Origin: a virus
Virus record (IMG/VR): IMGVR_UViG_3300025132_000018
Location: 1-31,781 of that record
Strand: one strand, 5' to 3'
Length of the DNA: 31,781 bases
Under the pieces are notes generated by a model. That model did not search any database, had not been told where the DNA came from, and saw only the letters and a program-made list of their open reading frames with translations. Positions 22,685 through 27,741 of this stretch are shown piece after piece. A program made the position numbers and the translations under genes. Position 1 is the first letter of the stretch. Each line of letters begins with the position of its first letter.

Positions 22685-23895
22685 ATTTCTTTTTTAAAAA
22701 CTGATAATGTAAAATCTTTTTTATTGTGTACGCTTTTATAAATTTTTGATTCAATTCCACGATTTGCAAAAATCCAAAAGACTTGATTTGTTTTTCGTTT
22801 CATTGTTGTCAAACGATCACGACTTTGAAAATATGACACCGCCGAAAAATCAATATTTAAATAAACAATATATTTCGCACTTGAAAGATTCACGCCTTCA
22901 CGTCCGGACACGATTTGAAGTGCAATATTCTTATTACTTTGATTAAATTCTTCTATGTCTTGACAAACATTGTCACCGAAACATTCTTTTATCATATCAA
23001 ATTCCGCTTTGAATTTGTAAAATATCGCAATTTTTTCACCTTTAAAATGTTTTTTTATAAATAATACTTTTGAATTATCAAGAATCATTCGATTTCCGGA
23101 TTCAAATTTGACAGTTCCGGAAAACATTTGGTGAAGTTTTTGCATCAATTTGACGCCCGTGTCCGCAAGAATCACTTCTTCTTTTCCTTCGATCACTAGA
23201 TCTTTTTTTAATTGATTACAAAGTTTATATGTTGACGGTTTCATTTCAACATTCAATATTTTTTCATTCACTTGCGTTTTAAATCCGGCGTCTTTTTGTG
23301 TAAACTTCACAAAATATTTATTAATTATTGGATCAATAAGTTCTTTCCTGGAATTTGAATAATCATTGACATCGCCGTGACTTAATTTTCTCTTTTTAAT
23401 ATCAACAAATGTATGTGACCATTTATAAAAATTAATATATTCTTTGAAAGGCGAATATCTTGAAACCCAAAATTGATGATAAATTTGTGAATACGATTCC
23501 GGATGTGGTGTTCCGGATAAAAATATCATCGGTAAACTTGAATATAAAAATTTAAATTGTTTCGTTGCTTTTCCCGGTTTTGGAAATGAACCGAAACGAT
23601 GATGTTCATCGTGTATAATTAAATCAAAGTCATCTTTTATTTTGTGCATTGATTCATCATTTATAATTGTTAGATCAAAAGAAAAAATAAAATTGTCATA
23701 ATCTTTTTGAATTGATGAAATTGCTTTCTTCTTTGTCAGAAATAAAACATTTTTCGCGCCGAATAATTGCGCCGTGTTTAATGCGGTCAAAGTTTTTCCC
23801 GTTCTAACTTCCATCGCAAAATAAACAATCCCGTGTTCACTTAAAATGTCACAACCTTTTTCGGATAATTCGATTTGATATTCCCTTAATTCCAT
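22681..23895 (-). CDS. SNF2-like superfamily 2 helicase
   Basis: A 404-residue helicase: REYQ at the N-terminus (Q-motif-like), Walker A EVRTGKT (29-35), DEHH (96-99) as Walker B, LSGTPHPES (about 126-134) as motif III. In the second domain it has QIVSGREGVNLSSAKYIV (motif V) and QSRDRLTTMKRK (motif VI). This is the compact phage form of SNF2/DEAD helicases, probably for branch migration or replication restart. It overlaps the methyltransferase stop by one base (TAATG). Confidence 0.85.
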   Translation of the reverse strand: MELREYQIELSEKGCDILSEHGIVYFAMEVRTGKTLTALNTAQLFGAKNVLFLTKKKAISSIQKDYDNFIFSFDLTIINDESMHKIKDDFDLIIHDEHHRFGSFPKPGKATKQFKFLYSSLPMIFLSGTPHPESYSQIYHQFWVSRYSPFKEYINFYKWSHTFVDIKKRKLSHGDVNDYSNSRKELIDPIINKYFVKFTQKDAGFKTQVNEKILNVEMKPSTYKLCNQLKKDLVIEGKEEVILADTGVKLMQKLHQMFSGTVKFESGNRMILDNSKVLFIKKHFKGEKIAIFYKFKAEFDMIKECFGDNVCQDIEEFNQSNKNIALQIVSGREGVNLSSAKYIVYLNIDFSAVSYFQSRDRLTTMKRKTNQVFWIFANRGIESKIYKSVHNKKDFTLSVFKKEI

Positions 23896-24524
23896 TAAAA
23901 CATTTTTAATTGATTTGTTTTGTTTTCATTTATACCTTTTGCAATATTAAAAATGTGATTTCCGATTTCATAGTCAACCATATTTCGAAGAACTTTGTCG
24001 CGTCTTTGTGTCCCTTTATAATTTTGAATACTTACTTTGTGAAAATCTTCTAGTCTTTTTATTTCGTCTTTACCTTGACAAACACCAACACGTCGAACAT
24101 TTTGCGGTTTATTTATTTTAAAGTTTGTCCAATATAAATGACGGTCAATTTTCAATGTTGGATTTATTAATGGATCATAATATGGTTTGACGTTTTCAAC
24201 AACAAATTTTCCTTTAAAATGTGTGTTTAAAAAAATTATTTCTTGATACAATTTTAAATCCGGATAAATTGGATTGTCTTTTGAATGTCGCCAAAATCGT
24301 GCGCGTGAATGTGTTTGACAAGGCGGTGACGACCATATGAAATCAAAATCACCATAGTTATTTAATAAAAATTTATGCGCATCTTCAACGATTATTTCAT
24401 CCCCTGGAAATCTATTAGAATAAATTTCACAAAGTGATGGATCAATTTCAACGGAAGTGACTTGACAATCTTTCCACAAATAACGATTCCCACCTAAACA
24501 AGAATATAAATTTAATACTTTCAT
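23895..24524 (-). CDS. C5 cytosine DNA methyltransferase
   Basis: A 209-residue Dcm-type enzyme: motif I NLYSCLGGNRYLW (about 5-17), motif II SVEIDPSLCEIY, motif IV SSPPCQTHSRARFW with the catalytic Cys69, and motif VI VVENVKPYY (ENV at 110-112). It transfers a methyl group from S-adenosylmethionine to the C5 of cytosine in a specific site. It is shorter than common enzymes (300+ residues), with a small target-recognition part. No cognate restriction enzyme is seen, so it probably protects phage DNA. The recognition site cannot be read from the sequence. Confidence 0.85.
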   Translation of the reverse strand: MKVLNLYSCLGGNRYLWKDCQVTSVEIDPSLCEIYSNRFPGDEIIVEDAHKFLLNNYGDFDFIWSSPPCQTHSRARFWRHSKDNPIYPDLKLYQEIIFLNTHFKGKFVVENVKPYYDPLINPTLKIDRHLYWTNFKINKPQNVRRVGVCQGKDEIKRLEDFHKVSIQNYKGTQRRDKVLRNMVDYEIGNHIFNIAKGINENKTNQLKMF

Positions 24525-24534
24525 AGTTGTATTT

Positions 24535-26886
24535 TTAAAATGGACAATCGTCCGTTTGTTTTTCTTGTGTTATTATTTCAAAATATCTTCCAATGTTGTC
24601 CCGTGATTTATTTAATTCATACCCATTCAATTCACAATATTTGTTGATCCAAGATAAAAAAGTTCTGTTTTTTAGATCTTTTGTCTTTGTGTCTGAAATA
24701 TAACTTTGAACTGTTTCGGTTGTATATACACGGACATTTTTTTTAATGTTGCCTTCTTCGATCCAATCGTAAAAATCCTTTGATGTTTGTTGAATGAATC
24801 TTTTTATATTGGCGTTTATTGAAATCGTTTGTGTCAAACCTTCATTTAAAAATGTTTGTGTGATTTTTATCATATAATTATCGAATGAAATCCAATCTTG
24901 TTCATTCCAAGAATCAAACAAAAGTCTTCCATATTCTTCAATCGGTGATCTTTTGGATGAAAAATATTGATAAAATTCAACTTCGTGACGACGACGATCG
25001 TGTGAACCACCCGAACCATTGATCACATAATTTGTCGTGATGATTATTTTTGGTGATCGATCAAAGGGAATAAATATTTCATCCTTGTTTTTTTTGTTCA
25101 CAGTAATACCACCGGAAACAAGCGAAAACAATTGTTCAAAATTGAAGTTCTTTTTAACATCGTCGAACGCAAGAATTTGCGTATCAACATCGACACGTTG
25201 ATAAACGAATTGTGATTGATTTGGATCAAAAGTTTTACCATCTATTTGAACCAACTTTTTAAAATATGTCAACGCGGTCAACATCAAAGATTTTCCCGAA
25301 CCACCATTCGGATCATCGTTAATTTCTTGATCATTTAAAATGATAGCTTTTTGATCGGTTTTATCTTTGAATGAGTGCATCAAATATCCGATTGTGTTTT
25401 CCAAAGACTTCAATCTTTTTTCATCATTGTTTGAAACCTTTGCGACAAGATCTTGAAAGTCATTTTTTAATTTATTAGATTTTTTATAATCTCTTTGAAT
25501 GATGTGTTTTTCCCAAACGAATCCATCGACTTCGATATATGATAAAAAATCAATTGTTTTTTTGCCTATTTTGACAACACCGTTTTGATAATAAAGGAAA
25601 CAATCTTCTTTTGTATCTTGCAACATTTTCAAAGCTATTGAATCCAACATATTTAAATATTTTTCAGAAAATAAAATTGAAGATTTTGCAACATAATTCC
25701 ACACCGACCATTCATTTTTACTTTCTAAATGTTCAAGAACAAAGTCTTTTATTTTTTCAATTGATGTTGTGTTCACAATGTTTTGTTCGTGTTTAACAAA
25801 CAAAGGCGTGTCCCCACCTTCCGGATAATATTTATTGAATCCATTTTCTTCAAGAAATGTTTTGAATTTAAATGGATTTATTGTGATTATGTCTTCACCT
25901 TTTTTGTTTATTGTTGCCGTCCAAAAAATAGAATTGTTTTTTTTGACTTCTTCGTTGACTTCTTCGATTGTTGTTTTATCAATACTAGGAAACGCTTTCA
26001 CGATTTGATCAACCGTGTTTCCTTTTTGAACTTTTTGTTTTATTCTTTTGACTGTTGTTGTGTCTTCAAAATATTTTGTTCCAAAAGGTATTCTTTTATA
26101 TGCGGAACGCGTCAAAGATTGAACGTCGTTTTCCGGCATATTTGAACCGGTTATGTTTTGGACAATATATGTCAACGCAAAATCTTCGTCGATACCATAT
26201 GAACAAAACGCACCCGCAAGAATATAAAGATTATTATTCCAATTGTTTTCGACAAGTCCAAATTTTTCCGACCACCATTTCATTAAACGATTTATGATTT
26301 CATTTTCACTTTTCAATGGAAGAACCGGAACTTTTTCGGTCACGGAATAACCTTGTTCGACCGCTTTGTTTGTAAATTGAATTGAATCTTTATTCAAATA
26401 TAAATTTGGATCATATGATTCAAAACAAACGCGTGAAACATTCGAACATTTTTCGTCAAAGTATTCCGAATTAAAATGTTTTTCGATTCCTTTAAAATAA
26501 AGTTTGTGTTCATCCTTGTCACATTTTGGAATCTTGACAAGAACCTTCAATCCATTTCCGGACGGTGAAGTAAAAACCGCAAAAGTAAAAATATCTTCTT
26601 CGATTTTTTTTCTTTCCTGGAGGAACAACTCTTTGTTTGGATATTTGTCAAAGTCTAAAACACAAAGTCCCGAATGTTCAATCAAGGAATTATCATTTCG
26701 ACTTGTAAATGTTCCATTAAAACAAACAGCCGGAAGTTGTTTTTTTAAATCTAAATTTCCGTTTCTAATTTTATTTATTAATTCTTTACTAGTTCCGTTT
26801 TTAATGCGTTCTAGTTCTTCAAAAACTTGTATTCGATATGAAACATCTTTTGTCGAATAAAGTGATTTAAAAAGACTTATTTTCAT
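24535..26886 (-). CDS. Primase-helicase (BT4734/VirE_N-like N-terminus, SF3-type C-terminus)
   Basis: This 783-residue replication protein starts with an archaeo-eukaryotic-type primase-like domain: CVLDFDKYPN (acidic pair at 78-80) and TSPSGNGLKVLVKI (about 106-119), as in the BT4734/VirE_N family of Bacteroidota. A PriCT-like helical section lies around 195-270. The C-terminal ATPase has Walker A GGSGKS (528-533), Walker B ILAFDD (571-576), sensor IIITTN (614-619) and an arginine-rich SHDRRRHEVEF that may serve as arginine finger. This resembles phage D5/SF3 helicases (DUF5906-like). It should prime and unwind at the phage origin, which lies just upstream. Confidence 0.85.
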   Translation of the reverse strand: MKISLFKSLYSTKDVSYRIQVFEELERIKNGTSKELINKIRNGNLDLKKQLPAVCFNGTFTSRNDNSLIEHSGLCVLDFDKYPNKELFLQERKKIEEDIFTFAVFTSPSGNGLKVLVKIPKCDKDEHKLYFKGIEKHFNSEYFDEKCSNVSRVCFESYDPNLYLNKDSIQFTNKAVEQGYSVTEKVPVLPLKSENEIINRLMKWWSEKFGLVENNWNNNLYILAGAFCSYGIDEDFALTYIVQNITGSNMPENDVQSLTRSAYKRIPFGTKYFEDTTTVKRIKQKVQKGNTVDQIVKAFPSIDKTTIEEVNEEVKKNNSIFWTATINKKGEDIITINPFKFKTFLEENGFNKYYPEGGDTPLFVKHEQNIVNTTSIEKIKDFVLEHLESKNEWSVWNYVAKSSILFSEKYLNMLDSIALKMLQDTKEDCFLYYQNGVVKIGKKTIDFLSYIEVDGFVWEKHIIQRDYKKSNKLKNDFQDLVAKVSNNDEKRLKSLENTIGYLMHSFKDKTDQKAIILNDQEINDDPNGGSGKSLMLTALTYFKKLVQIDGKTFDPNQSQFVYQRVDVDTQILAFDDVKKNFNFEQLFSLVSGGITVNKKNKDEIFIPFDRSPKIIITTNYVINGSGGSHDRRRHEVEFYQYFSSKRSPIEEYGRLLFDSWNEQDWISFDNYMIKITQTFLNEGLTQTISINANIKRFIQQTSKDFYDWIEEGNIKKNVRVYTTETVQSYISDTKTKDLKNRTFLSWINKYCELNGYELNKSRDNIGRYFEIITQEKQTDDCPF

Positions 26887-27101
26887 TGTATTTTAATTTT
26901 TTATATAAATAATTCCATTAAGATTCCGCAATATTCCACATTTTTTTTCTTTATGTGGAATGATATTCGCCAATAATATCAACGAATTCAAAAAAATATT
27001 CCACAATTCCACATATTTTTGTCAAAATTTTTGTTCCATTATTACCAACTAAAAAAAAAGATCACAAAAGTTATCACAAATTATATGGAAATGCGGAACA
27101 T
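26887..27101. other. Probable origin of replication with ATTCC(A/G)CA iterons
   Basis: A 215-bp AT-rich gene-free stretch between the primase-helicase start and the DnaA-like genes. Word ATTCCACA occurs at 26933, 26998 and 27006 on the plus strand and as TGTGGAAT at 26954. Variants are ATTCCGCA (26923), ATTCCATT (26912), GTTCCATT (27033) and TGCGGAAC (27092). Two copies form a perfect 9-bp inverted repeat (26933-26941 with 26953-26961, 11-nt loop), and two are abutted head to tail. TTATCACAA (27071) is near the DnaA-box consensus TTATCCACA. The set also carries the leader and probably the promoter of the primase gene. Confidence 0.72.
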
Positions 27102-27422
27102 TTAAACAAGTTTATCTTGTTTTGATAATATTTGAAACATCAAAGTCAATAAATTGTTTTGTGTGATCACACCCATCGGAAAATAAGATCTAGTTTCTTT
27201 TGTTAGATCTAAAAACATTTTATCTTTTTTAAAATATTCATATTCATTTATTCCGTGAATTATTGTGGCGTGATTTCTATTAAATAAACAACCGATTTTT
27301 TGATAAGAATATCCATATGTTTTCCGTAAATATGCAAACATATAAAATCGTTTATAAACATTTTGACGTTCACGACTATTCGTGTTTAATTTATTCAATT
27401 TAATATATTCTTTAATATTCAT
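27102..27422 (-). CDS. DnaA domain IV-like DNA-binding protein 1
   Basis: A 106-residue basic protein (start at ATG 27422). The helix-turn-helix part YGYSYQKIGCLFNRNHATII followed by HGINEYEYF copies the DnaA C-terminal signature (RDHTTVLHA in cellular DnaA). The ATPase domains of DnaA are absent. It should bind short DNA boxes, most naturally the iterons or DnaA-like boxes in the gene-free stretch immediately downstream. It overlaps the paralogue upstream by 11 nt. Confidence 0.78.
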   Translation of the reverse strand: MNIKEYIKLNKLNTNSRERQNVYKRFYMFAYLRKTYGYSYQKIGCLFNRNHATIIHGINEYEYFKKDKMFLDLTKETRSYFPMGVITQNNLLTLMFQILSKQDKLV

Positions 27423-27741
27423 TTTCAATTTCGTTTTCTTTTTGATCTAAATAATTTTTTATTCTTTCTATGTTTTTAAAATATAAATGATCATTTATTT
27501 CTTCCGACAATTTGTGATATCTTATTCCGTGAAGAACGGACGCGTGATCGCGTTTAAAAAGTTGACCAATTTCCGACAATGTCATTGATGTGTTTTGTCT
27601 TAAATAATACATTAAATAAAAACGTCGATGTGTGATATATCTTTTTCGACTGTAATTATCAAGATTTTCTTCTTCAACAATTTCCTTGACATAATCCAAA
27701 TAATGTTTGACGTTTAATCTTTTAAATTCTTTCCAATTCAT
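27412..27741 (-). CDS. DnaA domain IV-like DNA-binding protein 2
   Basis: A 109-residue paralogue of the following gene. The DNA-binding signature is TLSEIGQLFKRDHASVLHGI (about residues 54-73), closer to cellular DnaA (RDHxxVLH) than its partner. The N-terminal half is helical and charged; the C-terminus is Glu/Asn-rich. Tandem duplication and position beside the primase and iterons point to origin recognition or transcription control. Its ATG overlaps the stop of the upstream 59-residue gene (4 nt). Confidence 0.8.
   Translation of the reverse strand: MNWKEFKRLNVKHYLDYVKEIVEEENLDNYSRKRYITHRRFYLMYYLRQNTSMTLSEIGQLFKRDHASVLHGIRYHKLSEEINDHLYFKNIERIKNYLDQKENEIENEY

Follow-up and report, generated by a model that had tools for sequence, protein, structure and literature searches.

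A candidate phage replication origin with boxes in fixed geometry between a primase-helicase gene and DnaA-domain-IV-like genes

The alpha protein of phage P4 combines primase, helicase and an origin-binding C-terminal part in one protein, and the plasmid iterons of RepA/TrfA-type initiators are direct repeats of about 17-22 bp that lie beside a Rep_3-type gene. For SaPI Rep and SCCmec Cch2, PMC7581432 describes self-loading helicases with short iterons that are bound by the C-terminal domain. The DNA analyzed here (the window, meaning the whole viral stretch of 31,781 bp) contains a gene-free gap of 215 bp and 24% GC at positions 26887-27101, for which no strand is assigned and which we consider very probably to be the phage's own replication origin.

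The likeness to P4 alpha, a single protein with primase, helicase and origin-binding parts, is one of described domain content, and a second, DnaA-like protein is present here. Plasmid iterons of the RepA/TrfA type were considered and set aside; the boxes are only 8-9 bp long and occur in both orientations, and no Rep-type match was obtained among the 10 window proteins scanned. With SaPI5/SaPIbov1 Rep and SCCmec Cch2, as described in PMC7581432, the locus shares short repeats beside the gene and a helicase of the D5 type, which in SaPI5 is joined to an AEP primase. Its helicase is predicted to belong to the SaPI/Cch2 fold class, and reading by a C-terminal dsDNA-binding domain, shown for SaPI/Cch2 in that source, is what we infer here. 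Because the array lies upstream of the primase-helicase gene, unlike in SaPIs, where it is downstream of rep, we say that it works like a SaPI origin and not that it is a SaPI-type origin. What is new relative to the SaPI/Cch2 origins is this upstream place, the fixed geometry with boxes in two orientations, the exchangeable words and the putative partner coded by the flanking DnaA-domain-IV-like gene. Bacterial oriC (PMC5043019) resembles the locus in its cluster of ~9-bp boxes, with an AT-rich stretch close by and a DnaA-type DNA-binding domain coded in the vicinity; unlike oriC with its TTWTNCACA boxes, the phage gap has no canonical DnaA box, the DnaA-like proteins have domain IV and no AAA+ domain, and the helicase is phage-coded. 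The nearest annotated phage record, MW202828 (Podoviridae sp. ctfjg026; 41% primase identity), includes a VirE-like gene along with one annotated as dnaA. It differs in the placement of its DnaA-like genes relative to the primase gene (2.4 kb upstream and 3.9 kb downstream), and the 300 bp before that gene contain no clear array, 7% of control windows being as repetitive. A partial literature survey found no published description of this array or module.

Content of the gene-free gap

No open reading frame of at least 50 aa was found in the gap and, in agreement with the preliminary description, the ORF list of the window has no second gap above 200 bp. The neighbors are also those first described: the primase-helicase gene (24535-26886) on one side and, on the other, the genes for DnaA-domain-IV-like proteins 1 (27102-27428) and 2 (27412-27741), all on the minus strand. 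The latter two are arranged in tandem over 27102-27741 with a 17-bp overlap; no other locus compared had two by profile. Elsewhere in the window, the 209-aa product of 23895-24524 is C5-methylase-like and short or remodelled, its PF00145 match being confined to profile positions 1-112 of 324.

Six exact copies of the word ATTCCACA/TGTGGAAT occur in the window, and four of them are inside the gap, at 26933, 26998 and 27006 on the plus strand and at 26954 on the minus strand, all within 82 bp. The claimed total of about eight is borne out when one copy with one mismatch (26923, ATTCCGCA) and three with two mismatches (26912, ATTCCATT; 27084, TATGGAAA; 27092, TGCGGAAC) are counted, and both orientations, a perfect 9-bp inverted repeat and a tandem pair are present as had been stated. 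We refer to the boxes by their offset on the primase's sense strand, with zero at the second box of the tandem pair. Box +75 (ATTCCGCA, 26923-26930, plus strand) has one mismatch and is aligned to ACGGAAT of two close relatives, L001 and L002. Box +65 (ATTCCACAT, 26933-26941, plus strand) is the left arm of the inverted repeat, and the inverted box at +47/+49 (ATGTGGAAT, 26953-26961, minus strand) is its right arm. The tandem pair of ATTCCACA boxes covers 26998-27013, with the word count and the offset table giving box 0 (ATTCCACA) at 26998-27005 and box -8 (ATTCCACAT) at 27006-27014, both on the plus strand. A degenerate tandem pair on the minus strand (TATGGAAA and TGCGGAAC) follows at 27084-27099. 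Between the two outer box pairs is an AT-rich stretch of 20% GC (27014-27083, no strand), a candidate unwinding element, the AT-richness of which is equalled by 5% of the record's 70-bp windows.

Taken from the 31,781-bp window alone, the evidence against chance is moderate: the cluster is unusual, not overwhelming. Among 100 order-2 Markov windows, 16 had some 8-mer present four times in 215 bp, as did 3 of 2000 gaps simulated with an order-1 model. The gap is the record's top repeat-scoring window, and none of 520 control windows from the same record reaches its score. The GC skew, proposed earlier as a check, declines monotonically along the window, does not turn at the gap and was uninformative. 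Chance becomes untenable because the array recurs in relatives.

Recurrence in relatives and box geometry

A primase-helicase search yielded 15 viral contigs, of which L001 and L002 (83-86% identity) have complete upstream DNA. In each, a single DnaA-like gene precedes an array of the word ATTCCACA, with 5 of 6 record-wide copies inside the array in L001 and 4 of 4 in L002, so that the conservation suggested as a check was indeed observed. The second DnaA-like protein of the window shares only 38 and 49% identity with those of the two relatives. Nevertheless, when the DNA of the window, L001 and L002 was aligned, the boxes stood out by their conservation: 43 of 53 word columns were identical, versus 53 of 159 other columns, and the inverted pair is 20 bp start to start in all three while the spacer sequence varies. 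The weak boxes at 27084-27099 are aligned with a perfect tandem pair, ATTCCACATTCCACAT, in both relatives, which makes the count of about eight biologically sensible. In L002, a DNA-methylase gene (PF01555) lies between the array and the primase gene, which are 1.0-1.2 kb apart.

A profile search by DnaA-like protein gave 34 loci (L138-L171), and exact ATTCCACA was clearly enriched near the DnaA-like gene only in L139 and L140, which are the L002 and L001 contigs, respectively. L138 (DnaA-like protein 52% identical) has no ATTCCACA in its 28.5-kb record, the 250 bp following its DnaA-like gene show no excess of repeats, and a sequence search with one DnaA-like protein returned no matches. The C-terminal part of the window's first DnaA-like protein resembles proteins of L141 and L153, where the DNA covered contains no primase. 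Two pattern scans were discarded. A public scan for paired ATTCCACA returned, among the matches listed, apparent chance loci (L018-L137, without a DnaA-like gene by profile), and a scan for the 9-11-9 inverted architecture gave 12 loci with a DnaA-like gene only in L177 and L181, again the L001 and L002 contigs.

Profile searching with the primase-helicase extended the set to 80 viral loci, some already known from earlier searches. A DnaA-like gene was present within 900 bp upstream in 60 of the 61 profile-search loci with at least 900 bp of upstream DNA and in 1 of 10 such loci from the first, partly different search set; these are the fair figures, since the pooled count of 89 of 110 is biased by loci chosen for the gene and by duplicate contigs. 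Clustering by DnaA-like protein at 85% produced 45 clusters, and gaps were tested in the 40 with gaps of 100-500 bp, the other five having gaps above 500 bp. Gap repetitiveness exceeded 95% of same-contig control windows in 35 of these 40 clusters and every control in 28. The words are lineage-specific: besides the window's own, they include (TT)ATCGTCAC, ATCGTCAT, ATTGTCAT, TTTGCGTCAT, CTTGTCAT, AGTTGTC, TTGTAACG and ACCCTTG. Related loci in assembled genomes are mostly from Bacteroidota (Pedobacter, Flavobacterium and others). Arrays (rank <0.01) are commoner beside an adjacent DnaA-like gene, at 30 of 40 clusters versus 5 of 34 loci without one, the latter being mostly more distant primases.

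Several further observations concern individual members of this collection. More distant primase-helicases in bacterial assemblies (L282, L299, L283, L288 and L284) have their own arrays before the gene, with the words TATGTCGA, CGACACAA, CGCAACAC, AAGTGTTG and ATTGGACA, and L282 and L299 have small DnaA-like genes ~2 kb beyond the primase. The L277 genome (Pedobacter sp. L105) codes for full-length DnaA-like proteins in three places, reflecting either several dnaA genes or a mixed assembly.

The spacing of the boxes is conserved where their spelling is not. Boxes are found at -8, 0, +47 (inverted), +65 and +75 in L192 (TTATCGTCAC) and at the same offsets plus +86 in L243 (TTTGCGTCAT); those of the window (TGTGGAA) are at -8, 0, +49 (inverted; moving the core call one base later gives +47), +65 and +75. 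The window thus matches 5 of 5 reference offsets, which were drawn post hoc from L192 and L243 after the box table had been inspected, and none of 200,000 random placements did so (six oriented sites over 215 bp, allowing the inverted register to vary by up to 4). In an offset scan blind to the word, the window scored 27 of 28 possible matches, versus a maximum of 21 among 85 control windows, and the gap outscored every control window in 28 of 40 clusters. Because unrelated words occupy the same positions, we read this as one nucleoprotein architecture with changed DNA specificity. Among the gaps of the 40 cluster representatives (L192 and L243, for example), 22 have a CTCTTAT-like element after the first box pair, compared with 2% of control windows; the window has no match to it. 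By eye, L192, L241, L243 and L158 also have a semi-conserved stretch of ~35 bp between boxes 0 and +47 with short inverted ends, such as GCTGAAAGTCAATAGCAG, which is perhaps a hairpin or priming site.

Candidate readers of the boxes

The words had been expected to covary with the DnaA-like protein. They did not, and our view of how the boxes are read changed. Over 70 loci, the partial rank correlation of word similarity with the primase-helicase was 0.60 (0 of 500 permutations as high), versus 0.03 with the DnaA-like protein (122 of 500 as high), and a second alignment gave the same result. The preliminary description, that of a self-coded initiator and its origin, is well supported as to the origin, which is backed by conserved words, geometry, a place by replication genes and recurrence in many lineages; as to the DnaA-like proteins as the initiator, the tests point elsewhere.

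The primase-helicase is the proposed array reader. Pfam matches (BT4734-like_N and PriCT_1) and fold comparison assign it a BT4734-like/AEP primase, a PriCT_1 domain and a D5/SaPI5-type helicase. The predicted helicase part resembles the SaPI5 primase-helicase (7ola, Z 9.3; 7om0, Z 9.1) and poxvirus D5 (Z 8-9) in a model that is poor in the helicase core (507-650) and better at the C terminus. There, residues ~690-775 (24562-24819, minus strand) are modeled as a winged-helix-like domain with helices at 692-700, 703-713, 722-733 and 740-754 and strands at 757-762 and 767-772; its similarity to winged-helix domains is weak (Z ~6), and among the matches listed the fold comparison gave nothing beyond this general resemblance.

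Individual primase columns were then compared with the words. Of 766 columns, the one most predictive of word class is 739, at the N-terminal end of helix 740-754 (AMI 0.62, five of the 70 loci being without a clear class). Residue 764 (24595-24597, minus strand), inside the winged-helix-like domain, ranks 5th of 766 in a scan for the end of the word. Of the 40 loci whose words end in -AC, 39 have H there and one has a gap; of the 21 loci with -AT words, 19 have Q, A, S, V or N, with L193 and L237 as exceptions; all nine loci with mixed word ends have H764. Four sister pairs differ in their word ends (L245/L241, L225/L232, L233/L235 and L158/L255, with 94, 90, 76 and 76% primase identity), and eight of 760 primase columns differ in all four. 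In the closest of these pairs, L245 combines H764 with -AC words and L241 combines Q764 with -AT words. Column 764 is the only one of the 760 with one fixed -AC residue and a different -AT residue in every pair, in a comparison devised post hoc, after the pattern had been seen, and in which L225 has mixed word ends; none of 106 DnaA-like columns has this pattern. Word ends change only 5 times on the tree, so phylogeny may explain part of the signal, and we regard the covariation of residue 764 with the last base of the word as a strong lead, not proof. When the primase was scanned in sliding segments of 40 residues, none stood out, and in a regression the block of residues 690-783 carried little weight.

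The DnaA-like proteins of the window are 108 and 109 aa long, and both score above the Bac_DnaA_C (PF08299) cut-off of 31.5 bits (37.1 and 47.1 bits for proteins 1 and 2, respectively). Both consist of domain IV only, and no full-length DnaA with an AAA+ domain is coded by either neighbor of the gap. Judged from its predicted model (pLDDT 94.5), the second protein is a genuine DnaA domain IV fold (3pvp, Z 11.1, rmsd 2.8, 90 aligned; 1j1v, Z 10.2, rmsd 2.9, 87 aligned). Equivalents of R399, R407 and H434 are kept across clusters in 42 of 44, 40 of 44 and 44 of 45 cases, respectively, in E. coli numbering by our own count on the alignment; DnaA residues 399 and 432-435 are among the base contacts given in PMC5043019. 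From the modeled fold and these kept residues, it is therefore probably a DNA binder. Over the same 70 loci, the DnaA-like protein also changes far faster than the primase-helicase, with a mean distance of 0.41 versus 0.05-0.18 per primase segment in 391 close pairs, as if under diversifying pressure or swapping.

Alternative readings and implications

The array could be an operator whose words regulate the primase-operon promoter, with the origin elsewhere, or it could be a chance cluster or a site for packaging, partition or methylation. For the operator, there is the location directly upstream of the primase gene, and TAnnTTTG, the Bacteroidota-type -7 box, is found in 23 of 40 gaps versus 17% of control windows. 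However, neither the window gap nor the L001 gap contains TAnnTTTG, the array of L002 is far from its primase gene as noted above, and a fixed arrangement of seven or eight boxes spanning ~170 bp goes beyond what a simple operator needs, so that we judge this explanation improbable. Chance or an unrelated site is more improbable still: the single-window statistics are moderate, but the same word recurs at the same place in two relatives and the same geometry in many lineages, and a packaging site is not expected by the primase-helicase in so many of them.

A more serious alternative keeps the origin and changes its reader, with the DnaA-domain-IV-like protein or proteins acting as a stripped-down DnaA that marks the boxes and recruits the primase-helicase. 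The domain IV fold with its kept contact residues fits this idea, as do the near-constant upstream gene in profile-search relatives, the L002 array, which stays by the DnaA-like gene while the methylase gene parts it from the primase, and the word form TATTCCACA, which differs from TTWTNCACA by one mismatch. The association of arrays with an adjacent DnaA-like gene speaks against the primase-helicase as reader. On the other hand, the words do not track this protein, its recognition-helix columns do not predict the word, the identical recognition helix RDHSSVIHG is paired with different words, and L250 and L263 have almost identical arrays although their DnaA-like proteins clearly differ. In L283, an array precedes the primase gene and the 76-kb contig has no Bac_DnaA_C match. 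Canonical DnaA boxes were rejected as the content of the gap: TTWTNCACA has no exact match there, and at up to one mismatch it occurs 110 times in the window and twice in the gap. Given an origin, we regard the DnaA-like protein as a possible but doubtful main reader, consider some other reader improbable, and lean toward the primase-helicase; as a complete account, an origin read by the DnaA-like proteins seems to us rather unlikely.

The explanation that we favor on balance is that the gap is the phage's own origin, read by the primase-helicase with the DnaA-like proteins as partners. About eight boxes of 8-9 bp in fixed relative positions around an AT-rich stretch would constitute this origin. 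The primase-helicase would dock on the boxes by its C-terminal domain, load as a ring or double ring, open the AT-rich stretch and prime synthesis. The DnaA-domain-IV-like proteins, which stand alone, probably bind there too and would serve as architectural partners or regulators, not as the reader of the word. We tentatively extend this to Bacteroidota phages in general, in which a D5-type primase-helicase might assemble an origin of fixed geometry together with a stand-alone DnaA domain IV protein, the word being repeatedly rewritten through small changes in the wing of the C-terminal domain while the box positions stay frozen. Each lineage would thereby have a private origin code that is not fired by its neighbors.

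If this is true, these phages would provide a natural series of dozens of origins with one geometry, many spellings and paired reader proteins, in which origin recognition and opening by a self-loading replication helicase, as well as the evolution of origin specificity, would be directly testable. It would also give a functional name to many unannotated phage intergenic regions and orphan DnaA-domain-IV genes.
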